Source of the DNA: Myxococcota bacterium
GTDB lineage: Bacteria; Myxococcota_C; UBA6777
Length of the DNA: 5,756 nucleotides
NCBI GenBank assembly: GCA_023150835.1
Contig: JAKLKB010000213.1
Coordinates: 1-5,756 of the forward strand
Direction of reading: 5' to 3'
Part shown: positions 307 through 5,615 of the stretch, one piece after another
How positions within the stretch are numbered: position 1 is the first letter of the stretch
How the letters are laid out: each line of letters opens with the position of its first letter
Translations under genes and position numbers: made by a program
The notes under the pieces: model-generated
The model's input: only the letters and a program-made list of their open reading frames with translations
What the model was told of the DNA's origin: nothing
Database searches by the model: none

Positions 307-2328
307 ATGTTGCGCAAGATGGCAGTGTGGCTGGTGGGCTTGGTGCTGTTGGCGGGTGTGGTGGGGTTGGAGGCGCGAAGCAAGGGTGAGATCGTGTTGG
401 AGGTTGTGGGAGAAGGGCAGAATGTAGGCGCGCAAAAGCCGGGTGGGAAGGTGGTTGCGGTGTTGGTGGGGATCAACACGTACAAGGACGATCGGTTTCG
501 TCGGCTGCGGTATGCGGAAAAAGATGCGCGGGATATGAAGAAGTATCTGCTTTCGATGGGTGTGAAGTCTCGGGATATCAAGCTATTGGTGGGGCAGCAA
601 GCGACGCGGCGAGCGATCCAGCGCGCATTGTATGTATGGCTGCCGAAGAAGGTAGGCCCGAAGGACGGGGTGTTTGTGTTCTTTAGTGGACATGGCGAAA
701 AGTGGGGCGTGAAGGACTATATCGTGCCGTACGATGCAGAAGCGGATGCGTTGGAGATATCGGGATTGTTGGGTGCTGCGGTGGAGCGTTCGTTGAATCG
801 GCTGCGTGTGCGGCAGCAAGTGTTGGTGTTGGATACGTGCTTTAGTCGTGCGATAGCATCGGAGTATGTGGCGATGATGGCGAATGTGCGACCGCGAAGC
901 AACTTCTTGCCGAACACACACTTGAAGCGATTTCAAGGGCGTGGGCGTGTGGTGTTCGCGTCGTCGGATGGAAATGAAGTGTCGCTGGAGCCAAAGAACC
1001 TAGGGAATGGGCTGTACACGCACTACTTCTTGAAAGGACTACGAGGGGAAGCGGACAAGGACGGAGACAAGTGCATCACAGCGCGAGAAGTCCACGATTA
1101 TGTGAGCGTCAAGGTCTCGGTACACGCAAAGGGAAAACAAACGCCCGCATGGGATCAAAACAGCACAAAAGAGATCTTATTGGTGCGGATGCCGGGGTGT
1201 GGGCAACGGGTGGCCTCGACAGGAACGAGTGGAACGGGCGGTAGCAGCGGAACGCCTCCAAGCGGCGGAGGGTGGGGCGTGTTGGTGGTGTCGGCAGATG
1301 TGGGGGGCGTGGAGGTGTATGTGGGCCCTGTGTACAGGGCGCTTCTGCTGAAATCGGGAGAGAGAACGCGGTTGCGGCTACGAGCGGGACAGCACGAAGT
1401 GACGTTGAAGAAGCAGGGCTATAAAGACCAGAGCGTGCTTGTGCAAGTCGAAGCAGGCGGAGAACTGCCGTTGGAAAGGCGGATGATCCGAGATGATGCG
1501 GAGGCGGTGGTGCAACGTCCGACACCGCCAAGACAACCGCCCCTTGTGGCATCCGCGCAACCGAGCCGTGCGAGTTGGCCAACAGAGCCTAGTGCAGGGC
1601 AAGGACATCAGTTCATGGTGAAACGACAGACCTTCAGGGTGCGATGGATCCCCGCAGGTTCGTTTGTGATGGGGAGTCCAGAGAACGAGTCGGGGCGTGA
1701 TAGTGATGAAGGGCCACAGCGGAGTGTCACGATTAGCAAAGGGTATTGGATGCTAGAGAGCGAGGTGACACAAGGGCAGTACAAGGCGCTGATGGGGTCG
1801 AATCCATCGCGTTTCTCGTCGTGCGGCGACAACTGCCCTGTGGAGCGGGTGAGTTGGCATCAAGCGCGGGCGTTTGCGGATAAGCTGTCGAGAGTGCAAG
1901 GTCTTGCACCTTGTACGACGACGGGCAGGGGGATTTTTCGGTGCAAAGGATGGCGGTTGCCAACGGAAGCAGAGTGGGAATACGCAGCGCGAGCGAGAAG
2001 TACAGGAGCGCGGTATGGGGAGGTCGACGATGTGGCTTGGTATGGTGGCAATAGCAAGGGCAAAACGCATCCGGTGGGCAAACAGAGCGCGAATGGTTGG
2101 GGATTGAAGGATATGTTGGGGAATGTGTGGGAGTGGACAATGGATGTGGAGGGTTCGTACGCAGGTATGTCTACGCAGGATCCACTACGTAGCAGTGGCA
2201 GTACGAAGCGGGTGTTTCGAGGTGGTAGGTGGGCCTCCGTCGCGAGGTTCGTGCGCTCGGCGTTTCGCTACTTCAGTGCGCCGACGTATCGCGGCTACTT
2301 CCTCGGTTTCCGTTTGCTCAGGTACTGA
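307..2328 (+). CDS. Exported caspase-like peptidase with PEGA and FGE/SUMF1-type lectin-fold domains (putative DGR target)
   Basis: The 673-residue protein starts with a Sec-type signal peptide: Lys4, a hydrophobic core at about 6-20, and likely cleavage near LEA-RS (23-24). Residues ~47-295 form a C14 caspase/metacaspase-like domain: the AVLVGINTYK strand, catalytic His129 in FFSGHG and Cys178 in VLDTCFS. An EF-hand-like loop DKDGDKCITAREV (250-262) sits near its end, as in many bacterial caspases. A Gly/Ser/Thr linker (~303-322) leads to a PEGA-like domain (~323-393, with AGQHEVTLKKQGY) that may bind cell-surface material. After a Pro-rich linker (~395-435), residues ~440-673 are an FGE-sulfatase domain: IPAGSFVMGS, WRLPTEAEWEYAAR (549-562), GNVWEW (605-610), RVFRGGRW and LGFRLLRY at the very end. 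Cys506/510 and Cys536/546 could form disulfides. Positions matching the copper cysteines of true formylglycine-generating enzyme are Ser644 and Val649, so oxidase activity is unlikely and the fold probably binds ligand. The last ~35 codons look like a DGR variable region. The protease substrate is unknown. The domain calls are firm; the biological role is inferred. Confidence 0.95.
   Translation: MLRKMAVWLVGLVLLAGVVGLEARSKGEIVLEVVGEGQNVGAQKPGGKVVAVLVGINTYKDDRFRRLRYAEKDARDMKKYLLSMGVKSRDIKLLVGQQATRRAIQRALYVWLPKKVGPKDGVFVFFSGHGEKWGVKDYIVPYDAEADALEISGLLGAAVERSLNRLRVRQQVLVLDTCFSRAIASEYVAMMANVRPRSNFLPNTHLKRFQGRGRVVFASSDGNEVSLEPKNLGNGLYTHYFLKGLRGEADKDGDKCITAREVHDYVSVKVSVHAKGKQTPAWDQNSTKEILLVRMPGCGQRVASTGTSGTGGSSGTPPSGGGWGVLVVSADVGGVEVYVGPVYRALLLKSGERTRLRLRAGQHEVTLKKQGYKDQSVLVQVEAGGELPLERRMIRDDAEAVVQRPTPPRQPPLVASAQPSRASWPTEPSAGQGHQFMVKRQTFRVRWIPAGSFVMGSPENESGRDSDEGPQRSVTISKGYWMLESEVTQGQYKALMGSNPSRFSSCGDNCPVERVSWHQARAFADKLSRVQGLAPCTTTGRGIFRCKGWRLPTEAEWEYAARARSTGARYGEVDDVAWYGGNSKGKTHPVGKQSANGWGLKDMLGNVWEWTMDVEGSYAGMSTQDPLRSSGSTKRVFRGGRWASVARFVRSAFRYFSAPTYRGYFLGFRLLRY
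2218..2328 (+). other. Putative DGR variable region (VR) at the 3' end of the caspase/FGE gene
   Basis: Codons from RGGRW to the stop show the mark expected of adenine-specific mutagenesis of AAC/AAT codons. Twelve codons end in C or T at positions where related FGE-type DGR targets carry Asn runs: GCC TCC GTC (2233-2241), TTC (2248), TTT (2263), TAC TTC AGT (2269-2277), TAT (2287) and GGC TAC TTC (2293-2301). The codons between them are invariant-looking framework: CGC TCG GCG, CGC, then CTC GGT TTC CGT. Only 6 of the 78 bases from 2233 to 2310 are A. Most codons in the rest of the gene end in G (GTG, GCG, TTG), so the GTC/GCC/TCC run stands out. C-terminal placement on a lectin fold of the FGE subclass is the known arrangement of DGR targets such as TvpA of Treponema. 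The template repeat and reverse transcriptase are not in the window, so this rests on codon pattern alone. Confidence 0.62.
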
Positions 2329-2373
2329 CGCTTGTCCCTTTTACCCTTTTTCCCTTGGCCGAACGCAGGCGAG
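2329..2373 (+). other. Pyrimidine-rich tract after the VR, candidate IMH-type flank
   Basis: Immediately past the stop, CCCTTTTA (2336-2343), CCCTTTTT (2344-2351) and CCCTTGG (2352-2358) form 2.5 copies of an 8-bp pyrimidine repeat, followed by CGCAGGCGAGG. DGR variable regions are followed by an invariant initiation-of-mutagenic-homing sequence, and this conspicuous non-coding tract lies where one is expected. Without the template repeat its extent cannot be set. It is too weakly structured to be an intrinsic terminator. Confidence 0.35.
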
Positions 2374-2528
2374 GTCTACGTAGAGGGTGGTGGCGGAAGT
2401 GGCCGAAACGGAGACGCGGGAGTCTGAAGCGAAGAAAGCGCAGCAAGCGGAGCGTTAAGCGGAGCGGCAAGCGACCGAAGCGGAAGACCTCCCGCAAGGC
2501 GAAGAGAAGGCCTCGATGAGAAGGGGGG
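2374..2528. other. Purine-rich intergenic stretch, no supportable gene
   Basis: This stretch is rich in GAAGCG/AAGCGGAGCG words, with two copies of AAGCGGAGCG at 2446-2455 and 2457-2466. One forward frame (2384-2458) is open for 24 codons and reads as an acidic, Gln/Ala-rich, coiled-coil-like peptide (ESEAKKAQQAER) before a TAA. Another frame gives an Arg/Lys-rich peptide. Neither has a ribosome binding site or recognisable domain. It may be a decayed coding fragment or simple low-complexity DNA. Confidence 0.4.
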
Positions 2529-2637: not shown

Positions 2638-5421
2638 ATGAGGTCGCGGATTCGGGTGTTTGGGTGGTTGTGTGGAGCAGCGGTGCTGTGTTGTGTGGGG
2701 GCGTGTGAGCCGACGAAGCCGCCTGTTCCAGCGGTGGGTTGGGATGGAAAGATCTACGAACTACCGATACCCGAGCGTTCGGCGACTTGTGCGGTGGCGG
2801 AGAGTGCAGAGAAGTTGAAGCCGTGTGCGGAGGGTTCGGGAGCCTTTGGGTTTTGGCGGATCGATGAGCAAGGGCTGCCGGCGTATGAGTACACGCTAGA
2901 CCAACGCAGCGATCCCAAGGCGTTTTACAAACATTCTCGGAACAAAGAGCCGCGCACCCATCTTCATCAGATCGGAAACGACCGACTCAACGGGATCGCA
3001 TACAACGAAGGCTATGTCGAGCTGATGAGCCAAGAGCGCGGTGTGACTTACCACAATCGCTTTGATGAAAAGTATCGCAACTACACAGGCGGTTTTTCTT
3101 TGCTCGAAGAAGACGGGGTGGTGTGGAATACGGCGCAGCGTTGGATGCCTGCGGAAGCCAAGGCAAGGCGAGTATTTGGGGCGGGTTATGTGACGTATAT
3201 CACGCAGTATCGGGGGATTCGGTTGACCAAGACGATCCATGCGGCCTCGGGTGATCTGCCTGCGCTGGTCAGCGATGTGGTGATCGAAAACCTTACGCCC
3301 AACCAGCGGGAGATCCGGCATTACGAGTATTGGGATGTGAATCGCCATCAGGCGGTGTTTCAACCGCTGCGCACAAAAGAGGCGGGAGATGCAGGAGATA
3401 TCGAGCGAGATCTGTTGAACAAAAGCTTTACGCAAAAAGTGCAATGGGACGCCAAAGCCCAACGTGTGTGGGTGGAGTTTGTCAAAAAGCCCGATATCAG
3501 CGTCCCTGCAAAAGAGGCCGTCTCTACGGCTGATCTGCATCCCTCGCCGATCTTTTTGGCGGCGGTCGCTCCATCCGCAGTCGTCGAAGCCAACGATCTT
3601 TTTACTGATCAATCAGCTTTTTGGGGACAGGGCGGCCCGACACAGCCCGAAGCCGTCAAGCAACGCGCTCAAGGCTCGCTGCTCGAACAAGGCGAAGCCT
3701 TCCGCCAAAATGCGATGTTTGCGATGCGCCACAGTCTTTCTATCGCCCCCAAAGCAACGCTCTCGCTGCGTTTTGTGTACGGTTATCTGCCAAGCGGCCA
3801 CGATGCCAGCTTTTTGCAGCGATATGCCGATCCCGAAACACAGCAGAAGCCGCACATCCAACGCTTTCAGGACAAGTTGGCCTACTTTGTCGCGCCTGAT
3901 GCGCCGTTTCTTTCGCGGGAAGTGCCTTGGCACGCTTACAACCTGCTTTCGTCGGTCAACACGTTGGACTACTTCAAAGCGGCGGTGACACCGCAGGGAT
4001 CGGCGTATCTGTACTTGCATGGATTTGATGGAGCGCCCCGCGATCATGCGCTGTTTTCGATGCCGTTGGTGTATCTGCGCCCTGATCTGGCACGCGGCAA
4101 CTTGCGCTTGATCATGGGGATGACGCGAGCAGAAGATGGCGGTATCAGCTACAGCTATCACGGAAACGGATACTTGGAGAATGCGATCATCCACAAATAT
4201 CCGTCGGATCTGGATATCTTCTTTTTGGCGTCGATGGCAGAATATCTCGCCGCTACGGGAGATCGGGCCTTTTTGAAAGAAAAGATCGCTTTTCACCCCG
4301 GCAATCAAAACGAGTTCGCAGGAAAGCGCCCTTCGTATGTGAAAGACGATACGGTGTTGGATCACATCCGTTGTGCATTTTATCATCTGAAAGGGTTTGT
4401 AAAGCGCGGACCGAACGGCTTGATTCGGATCTGGGACGGCGATTGGTCAGACGGGATCGTCTGGGAAAATGGCGAAAAGTACGATGCCAACAAAAGCATC
4501 CAGTCTGGGGAATCGATCCCGAATACGCAGATGGCCTTGTATGCGCTGCCTTTGATGGCCGAAGTGATCGAGCCGGATGATGCGGTGCTTGCGGGAGAGA
4601 TGCGGGCCTTTGCAGCGGAGCTATTGGAGCCGATCCGAAAAGAGTTTTTGGGGAAGTATTTTGCGCGGGCATGGCTGCGAGATCGCAATGATCAGCCTGT
4701 TCATGTGGGGGTGGGCGGTGTGGATTTGGAGTCGCAGCCTTGGGGGATCATGGCGGAGCAGATCCTCGATCCTGCCCAAAAGACGGCGCTGCTCGACCAC
4801 ATACACGAGCGGCTGGACAAGGATTCACCGATCGGACCGCCTTTTACGCCCGGGGGCGCGGTGTGGCCGGCGATATCGCAGCTTGTGACGTGGGCGTATG
4901 CGCTTCATCAACCCGAACGGGCGTGGCAGACGCTGCTTCGACAGACGTATCATGCACACGCGACGCAGTGGCCGGATCTCTGGTTTGGGATCTGGTCAGG
5001 GGCCGATGGTTTCTTTTCCAAGTCGGGCAATGCGTGGGATAGCGTCGCTACGCCGATGACGGACTGGCCTGTGATGAACCTGAACCAAGATGCGATGTTT
5101 TTGCTCGGTTTGTTGCGGGTGGCAGGGATCCGACCCCATCGCAAGGGCATCTTGATCCAGCCGACAGGAGCGCCCAAGACTTTTTCGCTGAAGTTTCCGC
5201 TGGTGTCGTTGACGGTCGAAGCAAAGAGCGCAAAGGGCGAATACACCGCAGCCAACGACGGCGAAGTTTGGCTGTATTTCAATGCACCGTTTGGACAGAC
5301 CTTGAAACAAGCGACGTTGCAAACAGCCCAAGGGACGGAGATCTTGACGGGTGCAGGGCCGTTGGGGAAAGCCGTACAGGTCAAAACAGGCGAGATCGTG
5401 CGTTATACGATCGCTTGGTGA
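2638..5421 (+). CDS. GH94/GH36-like glycoside phosphorylase or hydrolase, lipoprotein
   Basis: The 927-residue protein begins with a lipoprotein signal: Arg2/4/6, hydrophobic core, lipobox VGAC with Cys23. Glu follows Cys23 rather than Asp, so outer-membrane sorting is plausible. Residues ~65-430 resemble the N-terminal beta-sandwich of GH94 enzymes (GFWRIDEQGLPAYEYTLD; GYVELMSQERGVTYHNRF). Residues ~440-840 resemble the (alpha/alpha)6 barrel: GFDGAPRDH (462-470), SDLDIFFL (523-530) where GH94 enzymes carry their general-acid Asp, GDWSDG (601-606), GES (624-626), VDLESQPWG (695-703), PPFTPGG (734-740) and NLNQDAMFLLGLLRVAGIRP, then a C-terminal beta domain. Cellobiose phosphorylases are usually ~800 residues and cytoplasmic, so this one is longer and exported. 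The phosphate-contact His that follows the ENGG-type loop in GH94 appears replaced: GGAVWPAISQLVTWAYA (739-755) has no His. Hydrolysis rather than phosphorolysis is possible, but my by-eye alignment there is loose. The sugar substrate is unknown. A 309-bp gap separates it from the caspase gene. Fold call good; reaction uncertain. Confidence 0.93.
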   Translation: MRSRIRVFGWLCGAAVLCCVGACEPTKPPVPAVGWDGKIYELPIPERSATCAVAESAEKLKPCAEGSGAFGFWRIDEQGLPAYEYTLDQRSDPKAFYKHSRNKEPRTHLHQIGNDRLNGIAYNEGYVELMSQERGVTYHNRFDEKYRNYTGGFSLLEEDGVVWNTAQRWMPAEAKARRVFGAGYVTYITQYRGIRLTKTIHAASGDLPALVSDVVIENLTPNQREIRHYEYWDVNRHQAVFQPLRTKEAGDAGDIERDLLNKSFTQKVQWDAKAQRVWVEFVKKPDISVPAKEAVSTADLHPSPIFLAAVAPSAVVEANDLFTDQSAFWGQGGPTQPEAVKQRAQGSLLEQGEAFRQNAMFAMRHSLSIAPKATLSLRFVYGYLPSGHDASFLQRYADPETQQKPHIQRFQDKLAYFVAPDAPFLSREVPWHAYNLLSSVNTLDYFKAAVTPQGSAYLYLHGFDGAPRDHALFSMPLVYLRPDLARGNLRLIMGMTRAEDGGISYSYHGNGYLENAIIHKYPSDLDIFFLASMAEYLAATGDRAFLKEKIAFHPGNQNEFAGKRPSYVKDDTVLDHIRCAFYHLKGFVKRGPNGLIRIWDGDWSDGIVWENGEKYDANKSIQSGESIPNTQMALYALPLMAEVIEPDDAVLAGEMRAFAAELLEPIRKEFLGKYFARAWLRDRNDQPVHVGVGGVDLESQPWGIMAEQILDPAQKTALLDHIHERLDKDSPIGPPFTPGGAVWPAISQLVTWAYALHQPERAWQTLLRQTYHAHATQWPDLWFGIWSGADGFFSKSGNAWDSVATPMTDWPVMNLNQDAMFLLGLLRVAGIRPHRKGILIQPTGAPKTFSLKFPLVSLTVEAKSAKGEYTAANDGEVWLYFNAPFGQTLKQATLQTAQGTEILTGAGPLGKAVQVKTGEIVRYTIAW

Positions 5422-5427
5422 GGGGAT

Positions 5428-5455
5428 GGCGGATTATACGAGATCCGCCCGTTTT
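5428..5455 (+). terminator. Possible Rho-independent terminator of the GH94-like gene
   Basis: GGCGGAT (5428-5434) pairs with ATCCGCC (5443-5449) across an 8-nt loop, 6 nt after the stop codon, and CGTTTT follows. Stem and position suit a terminator, although the T-run is only four bases. The right arm is also the start of the downstream repeat, so the repeat may itself supply terminator function. Confidence 0.45.
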
Positions 5456-5572
5456 GTGATCGTAAAAATGGTGGGGCAGACAGGTGTGGCTGCCTAAGAA
5501 TCGGGCGATCCGCCCGTTGTGTGATCGTAAAAATGGTGGGGCAGACAGGTGTGGCTGCCCAAGAATCGGGCG
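5443..5572. repeat. Tandem pair of 65-bp repeats related to the upstream array
   Basis: Two copies, 5443-5507 and 5508-5572, start ATCCGCCCGTT and end AATCGGGCG; they differ at only two or three bases. They share the left end CGCCCGTTTTGTGATCGTA and the right end GTGGCTGCCYAA.AATCGGGCG with the 78-bp units at 1-234, in the same orientation, but the middle differs (AAAATGGTGGGGCAGACAG). Outer arms CGCCCG/CGGGCG and an inner GGGCAG/CTGCCC pair can fold. At the unit junction, CGGGCG-ATC-CGCCCG (5502-5516) forms a second hairpin. This is the larger part of the 335-base non-coding end of the window. Confidence 0.9.
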
Positions 5573-5578
5573 TCTAGG

Positions 5579-5615
5579 CGATATCTTACGAGCACACTTC
5601 GCTCGGATATCGTAT
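5579..5615. repeat. Hairpin carrying the downstream copy of the 24-bp boundary element
   Basis: CGATATC (5579-5585) plus CGAGC (5589-5593) pairs with GCTCG (5601-5605) plus GATATCG (5606-5612), with a 3-nt bulge TTA and a 7-nt loop. Positions 5592-5615 match the upstream element at 239-262 in 21 of 24 bases. No long T-run follows, so it is more likely a repeat-family end or protein-binding site than a terminator. Confidence 0.75.

Follow-up and report, generated by a model that had tools for sequence, protein, structure and literature searches.

The window analysed here, a 5,756-nt contig of a draft Myxococcota genome, carries a gene at 307-2328 (plus strand, as are all window features below) whose last codons raise the question whether they have been written by a DGR, where the template of such a system would lie, and whether it could still act. 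The initial annotation, made from the window alone, took the gene for a DGR target, and a template in the same genome, beside an Avd gene and a DGR-type reverse transcriptase (RT) gene, now supports this. We are highly confident that the gene is a remote target, diversified in trans.

Domain architecture of the target gene

The open reading frame encodes 673 residues and, according to Pfam, joins a caspase, a PEGA and an FGE/C-type-lectin domain behind a hydrophobic N-terminus, which suggests that the protein is probably exported. The caspase (peptidase C14) domain lies at 454-1173 (residues 50-289; PF00656, E 1e-18, over its cut-off); the NCBIfam model caspase_w_EACC1 also matches this part, under its cut-off. 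Motifs in the translation place the putative catalytic His at codon 691-693 (SGHG) and the Cys at codon 838-840 (DTC), so that the protein has a C14 domain with a putative His-Cys dyad. The PEGA domain at 1273-1464 (residues 323-386; PF08308, E 7e-4), which links the caspase and FGE parts, scores 19.8 bits and thus falls slightly under its gathering cut-off of 20.8. The FGE-sulfatase/C-type-lectin domain at 1645-2322 (residues 447-672; PF03781, E 1e-43) holds the variable repeat (VR). Its best solved relative is 2y3c, TvpA of Treponema denticola (E 2e-31), which is likewise a DGR variable protein but is not fused to a caspase.

The variable repeat and its template

When the contigs of the same genome were queried with window positions 2090-2400, a template of the kind predicted by the initial annotation, about 120 bp long and matching except at A, was found on another contig of the draft. 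This template, TR1 (C63:17541-17663, minus strand), aligns without gaps over 123 bp to window positions 2199-2321, so that the repeat is longer than had been proposed; it stops about two codons short of the stop codon, in the 3' end of the C-type-lectin-fold gene. Over the 122 positions from 2200, the VR differs from TR1 at 23 of the 36 template A sites and at 3 of the 86 non-A sites (Fisher p 1e-12). Two of these three non-A differences (2304 and 2313, both T/C) fall in the last 20 bases of the VR and are shared with the related genome G001 described below. This 3' end, 2302-2321, is where the homing start site (IMH) would be expected; a search of the sequence surrounding the VR and downstream of it gave no inverted repeat of more than 6 bp. 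The strict TR1 pattern, with N at the adenines, matched three times in the 7.56 Mb of the genome, at TR1 itself, in the window and on contig C204, and the reversed control of this A-masked pattern gave no match. The C204 match is the VR of a Sel1-FGE gene (its Sel1 match is under the cut-off) and differs from TR1 at 19 of 36 A and 7 of 86 non-A sites, and all but one of these seven lie at the 3' end. Such clustering of non-A differences at the 3' end is common to all three TR1 VRs.

The variable codons are 637 (2215-2217; template AAT, here TTT), 643-645 and 648 (2233-2250; template AAC), 653 and 655-657 (2263-2277; template AAT/AAC), and 661 and 663-665 (2287-2301; template AAT/AAC). All of these except codon 637 had been named by the initial annotation, and each of the 12 is indeed AAC or AAT in TR1, while the framework codons that it had picked out agree with TR1 save for synonymous changes. 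Its list was incomplete, since codon 637 is a 13th varied codon and codon 651 has undergone a silent change, TCA to TCG, at a TR1 adenine. The TR1 adenines at codons 633, 634 and 660 are altered in G001. The count of only six A in the 78 bases from 2233 to 2310 proved correct, with a binomial P of 6e-4 at the gene's 22% A before any correction; 23 of the 1,945 windows of this size within the target gene are as A-poor, and the composition by itself is only suggestive, weak evidence for a DGR. AAY codons in which A is varied can encode 15 amino acids and no stop.

TR1 belongs to a cassette that reads, on the minus strand of C63, caspase-PEGA remnant, Avd gene, RT gene and then the 123-bp template, which begins 2 nt past the RT stop. 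The neighbouring caspase gene lacks an FGE part. The initial annotation expected an RT and an Avd next to the template, and both genes are there: the Avd exceeds its NCBIfam cut-off (NF033474, 86.9 bits against 80) and also matches Pfam bAvd, and the RT carries the DGR-type motifs LPIGNLTSQ and MDD; the RT gene, however, is broken. The downstream flank of the target gene, 2418-2512, recurs at 92% identity upstream of avd in this cassette, suggesting that the target once adjoined the C63 RT or was copied from there. The FGE gene directly downstream of TR1 (L036:7243-8113, minus strand) was considered as a current target and rejected, as in the scan it matches neither TR1 nor the second template, TR2, at non-A sites. 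Its VR-like end is interrupted by an in-frame TGA.

By analogy with characterised DGRs, TR1 RNA would have been reverse-transcribed with random bases placed opposite A, and the mutated cDNA would have replaced the VR, beginning from its conserved 3' end. In this way, about 13 residues of the C-type-lectin binding face would have been randomised.

The genome contains a second system, on contig C185, in which TR2 is accompanied by an ORF with an HRDC domain and by the C-terminal portion of a DGR-type RT, so that the two systems have the accessory proteins Avd (C63) and HRDC (C185). The VRs on C221 and C118 show again what was seen with TR1: non-A differences from TR2 number 0 and 1 in the two C221 VRs, 2 in C118, 6 in C9 and 8 in C211. 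On C118 and C9, the targets encode Ser/Thr kinase-FGE proteins. Pooled over six VRs, the outcomes at A sites were A to T in 55 cases, A to G in 46 and A to C in 11, with 104 unchanged. FGE genes with VR-like ends are also present on C62, C122 and C203 (L038, L039 and L043), for which the assembly holds no close template; the one on C203 encodes another caspase-PEGA-FGE protein.

Divergence from a related species

A syntenic copy of the target gene is present in G001, the genome of a species from the same genus, on a contig that ends at the gene start, and the comparison covers the gene and the region downstream. In the caspase-PEGA part (541-1680), about 6 differences were found in 1,140 nt (pS 0.004, pN 0.006). 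In the VR, by contrast, 29 of the 36 TR1 adenine sites differ against 1 of the 86 others (p 2e-20), while positions 2302-2370 are identical. The initial annotation had named synonymous-dominated divergence in a homologue as the finding that would speak against a DGR target; in G001 the VR shows the opposite (pN 0.39, pS 0.04). The glycoside hydrolase gene that follows (2638-3780) has a pS of 0.156, and the far lower value of the caspase-PEGA part suggests recent gene flow, after which the VR appears to have been rewritten in at least one lineage. No other single result is as strong as this comparison, since it holds whichever contig carries the template, and it amounts to a clean natural experiment: in two related species, the caspase-PEGA part is almost unchanged and the tip of the protein is rewritten only where the template has an adenine. 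No TR1 was found in G001. A TR2-type template and its flanks are retained there, and the HRDC-RT is absent, with a clean junction and matching flanks. Within the FGE domain, a 140-nt block (1987-2127) is highly diverged in G001 (L183) in a gene that is otherwise near-identical, as if swapped in from a paralogue.

Condition of the reverse transcriptases and relation to known systems

Both DGR-type RT genes look broken in the assembly, a draft of 239 contigs that is 93% complete. The C63 RT has a 23-nt deletion directly before YMDD that breaks the frame: between the (D/Q)(H/Q) motif and xDD, where 14 residues are present in the seven intact relatives whose sequences could be parsed, there are 19 nt in place of 42, and both halves of the gene are otherwise stop-free. 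In the C185 RT, the N-terminal part is missing. Searches of this genome and of four relatives from the same family turned up neither an intact DGR RT nor any DGR-type RT besides these two. RTs on C183 (group-II-like) and C85 (retron-like) were considered as an alternative source and rejected, as both lack the DGR motif. The C85 gene (L032:1183-3348, minus strand) encodes a 721-aa protein with two tandem RT domains, retron-like by NCBIfam and PADLOC, and copies of 720-723 aa are present in all four family relatives.

Despite these broken genes, the VRs look freshly rewritten, with non-A changes at only 3/86, 2/86, 0/84 and 1/84 sites. With so few of them, either the RT was lost recently, or an intact RT was not assembled, or the lesions are assembly faults. 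The window VR seems to have been rewritten recently, and the present activity of the DGR is uncertain because the RT genes in the assembly are damaged.

Two explanations for this discrepancy, both of which keep the DGR origin, have to be weighed. The DGR may have written the VR and later died in the lineage, so that the gene now holds a frozen variant, a reading to which we give somewhat less than an even chance. It agrees with the disruption of both assembled RT genes, with the loss of the HRDC-RT from G001, which has kept its template and flanks, and with the degenerate DGR loci documented in Thiohalocapsa (PMC10907252), but it has to accommodate the scarcity of non-A changes, the open halves of the C63 RT, and VRs that, although the backbone has a pS of 0.004, differ at 29 A sites between this genome and G001; together these imply that any loss was recent, or that an intact RT copy lies outside the assembly. 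A bolder reading, which we consider improbable, is that sensors in this genus diversify, then lock, the DGR enzyme being lost repeatedly while templates and targets are retained. Caspase and kinase sensors would then be varied in bursts, by an RT that is present in some cells only or is re-acquired, and frozen afterwards.

Alternatively, the RT lesions were introduced by the assembly, or the assembly missed an intact RT, and the DGRs are fully active. This is a real possibility, if not quite an even one, given the fragmented, incomplete draft and the fresh appearance of the VRs, and two RT genes broken beside the same motif are suspicious, as repeats can mislead assemblers; however, a 23-nt deletion is atypical of sequencing error, and the separate assembly of G001 has its own clean HRDC-RT deletion. 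That ordinary positive selection, or recombination between FGE paralogues, made the VR differ without any DGR is very improbable: the genome does have many such paralogues (28 matches) and block 1987-2127 in G001 is clearly swapped, but the VR differences follow TR1 adenines even at the silent change in codon 651 and leave first and second codon positions untouched where TR1 has no A, the template exists outside any FGE gene beside Avd and RT, and swaps would merely move variants that a DGR had made.

Diversification of the gene in trans by a DGR has precedents. A survey of cyanobacterial DGRs reported variable proteins, many of them remote, whose N-terminal parts resemble orthocaspases or are kinases (PMC7517822). 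As here, their C-terminal C-type-lectin VRs are dispersed over the genome and joined to a domain of the orthocaspase-like or Ser/Thr kinase type; unlike in that set, there is no sign here of a cyanobacterial host, PEGA stands between caspase and lectin, the N-terminus looks exported and the RT genes are broken in the assembly. For Thiohalocapsa, Dore and colleagues described degenerate DGR loci as well as diversification in trans (PMC10907252), and strain PB-PSB1 resembles the present genome in its large size, its several DGR classes with degenerate loci, its VRs that match a remote TR at non-A sites, and its FGE-type sensors with effector domains. It differs in having one complete locus per class, whereas no intact RT was found here, and in its targets, which are of NACHT/STAND or MoxR-vWA type instead of caspase-, kinase- or Sel1-FGE. 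Fusions of a caspase homologue to an FGE-sulfatase domain, metacaspase-FGE, are known from 33 sequences (PMC3501461); the passages of that paper on these proteins draw no link to DGRs and speculate on formylglycine modification, whereas the FGE domain here is a diversified binding domain. Caspase-lectin and kinase-lectin proteins diversified by DGRs at remote VRs have therefore been described before, as have degenerate DGR loci; what sets the present case apart is the PEGA linker, the likely export of the protein and the damage seen in more than one RT gene.

As to function, the variable lectin face may bind a ligand, possibly a changing one, and thereby control the caspase-like protease, in a recognition or regulated-death module; we regard this as evenly poised. 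The locus connects targeted hypermutation with a caspase-like protease that is apparently exported, and does so in a sparsely sampled lineage outside the groups, cyanobacteria and purple sulfur bacteria, in which such fusions were previously described. Since the RT genes look freshly broken, it is also relevant to the question of how DGRs come to be shut down, or to be shared by the members of a population.

Among the genomes searched, kinship falls from the same family directly to the same domain, so that the lineage, with genomes of 6.6-10.8 Mb, seems sparsely sampled. Finally, five copies of a 78-nt repeat lie at the contig ends of the window, three in tandem at 4-237 and two in tandem at 5440-5582; similar pieces are present on C63, and the repeat may explain the contig breaks.
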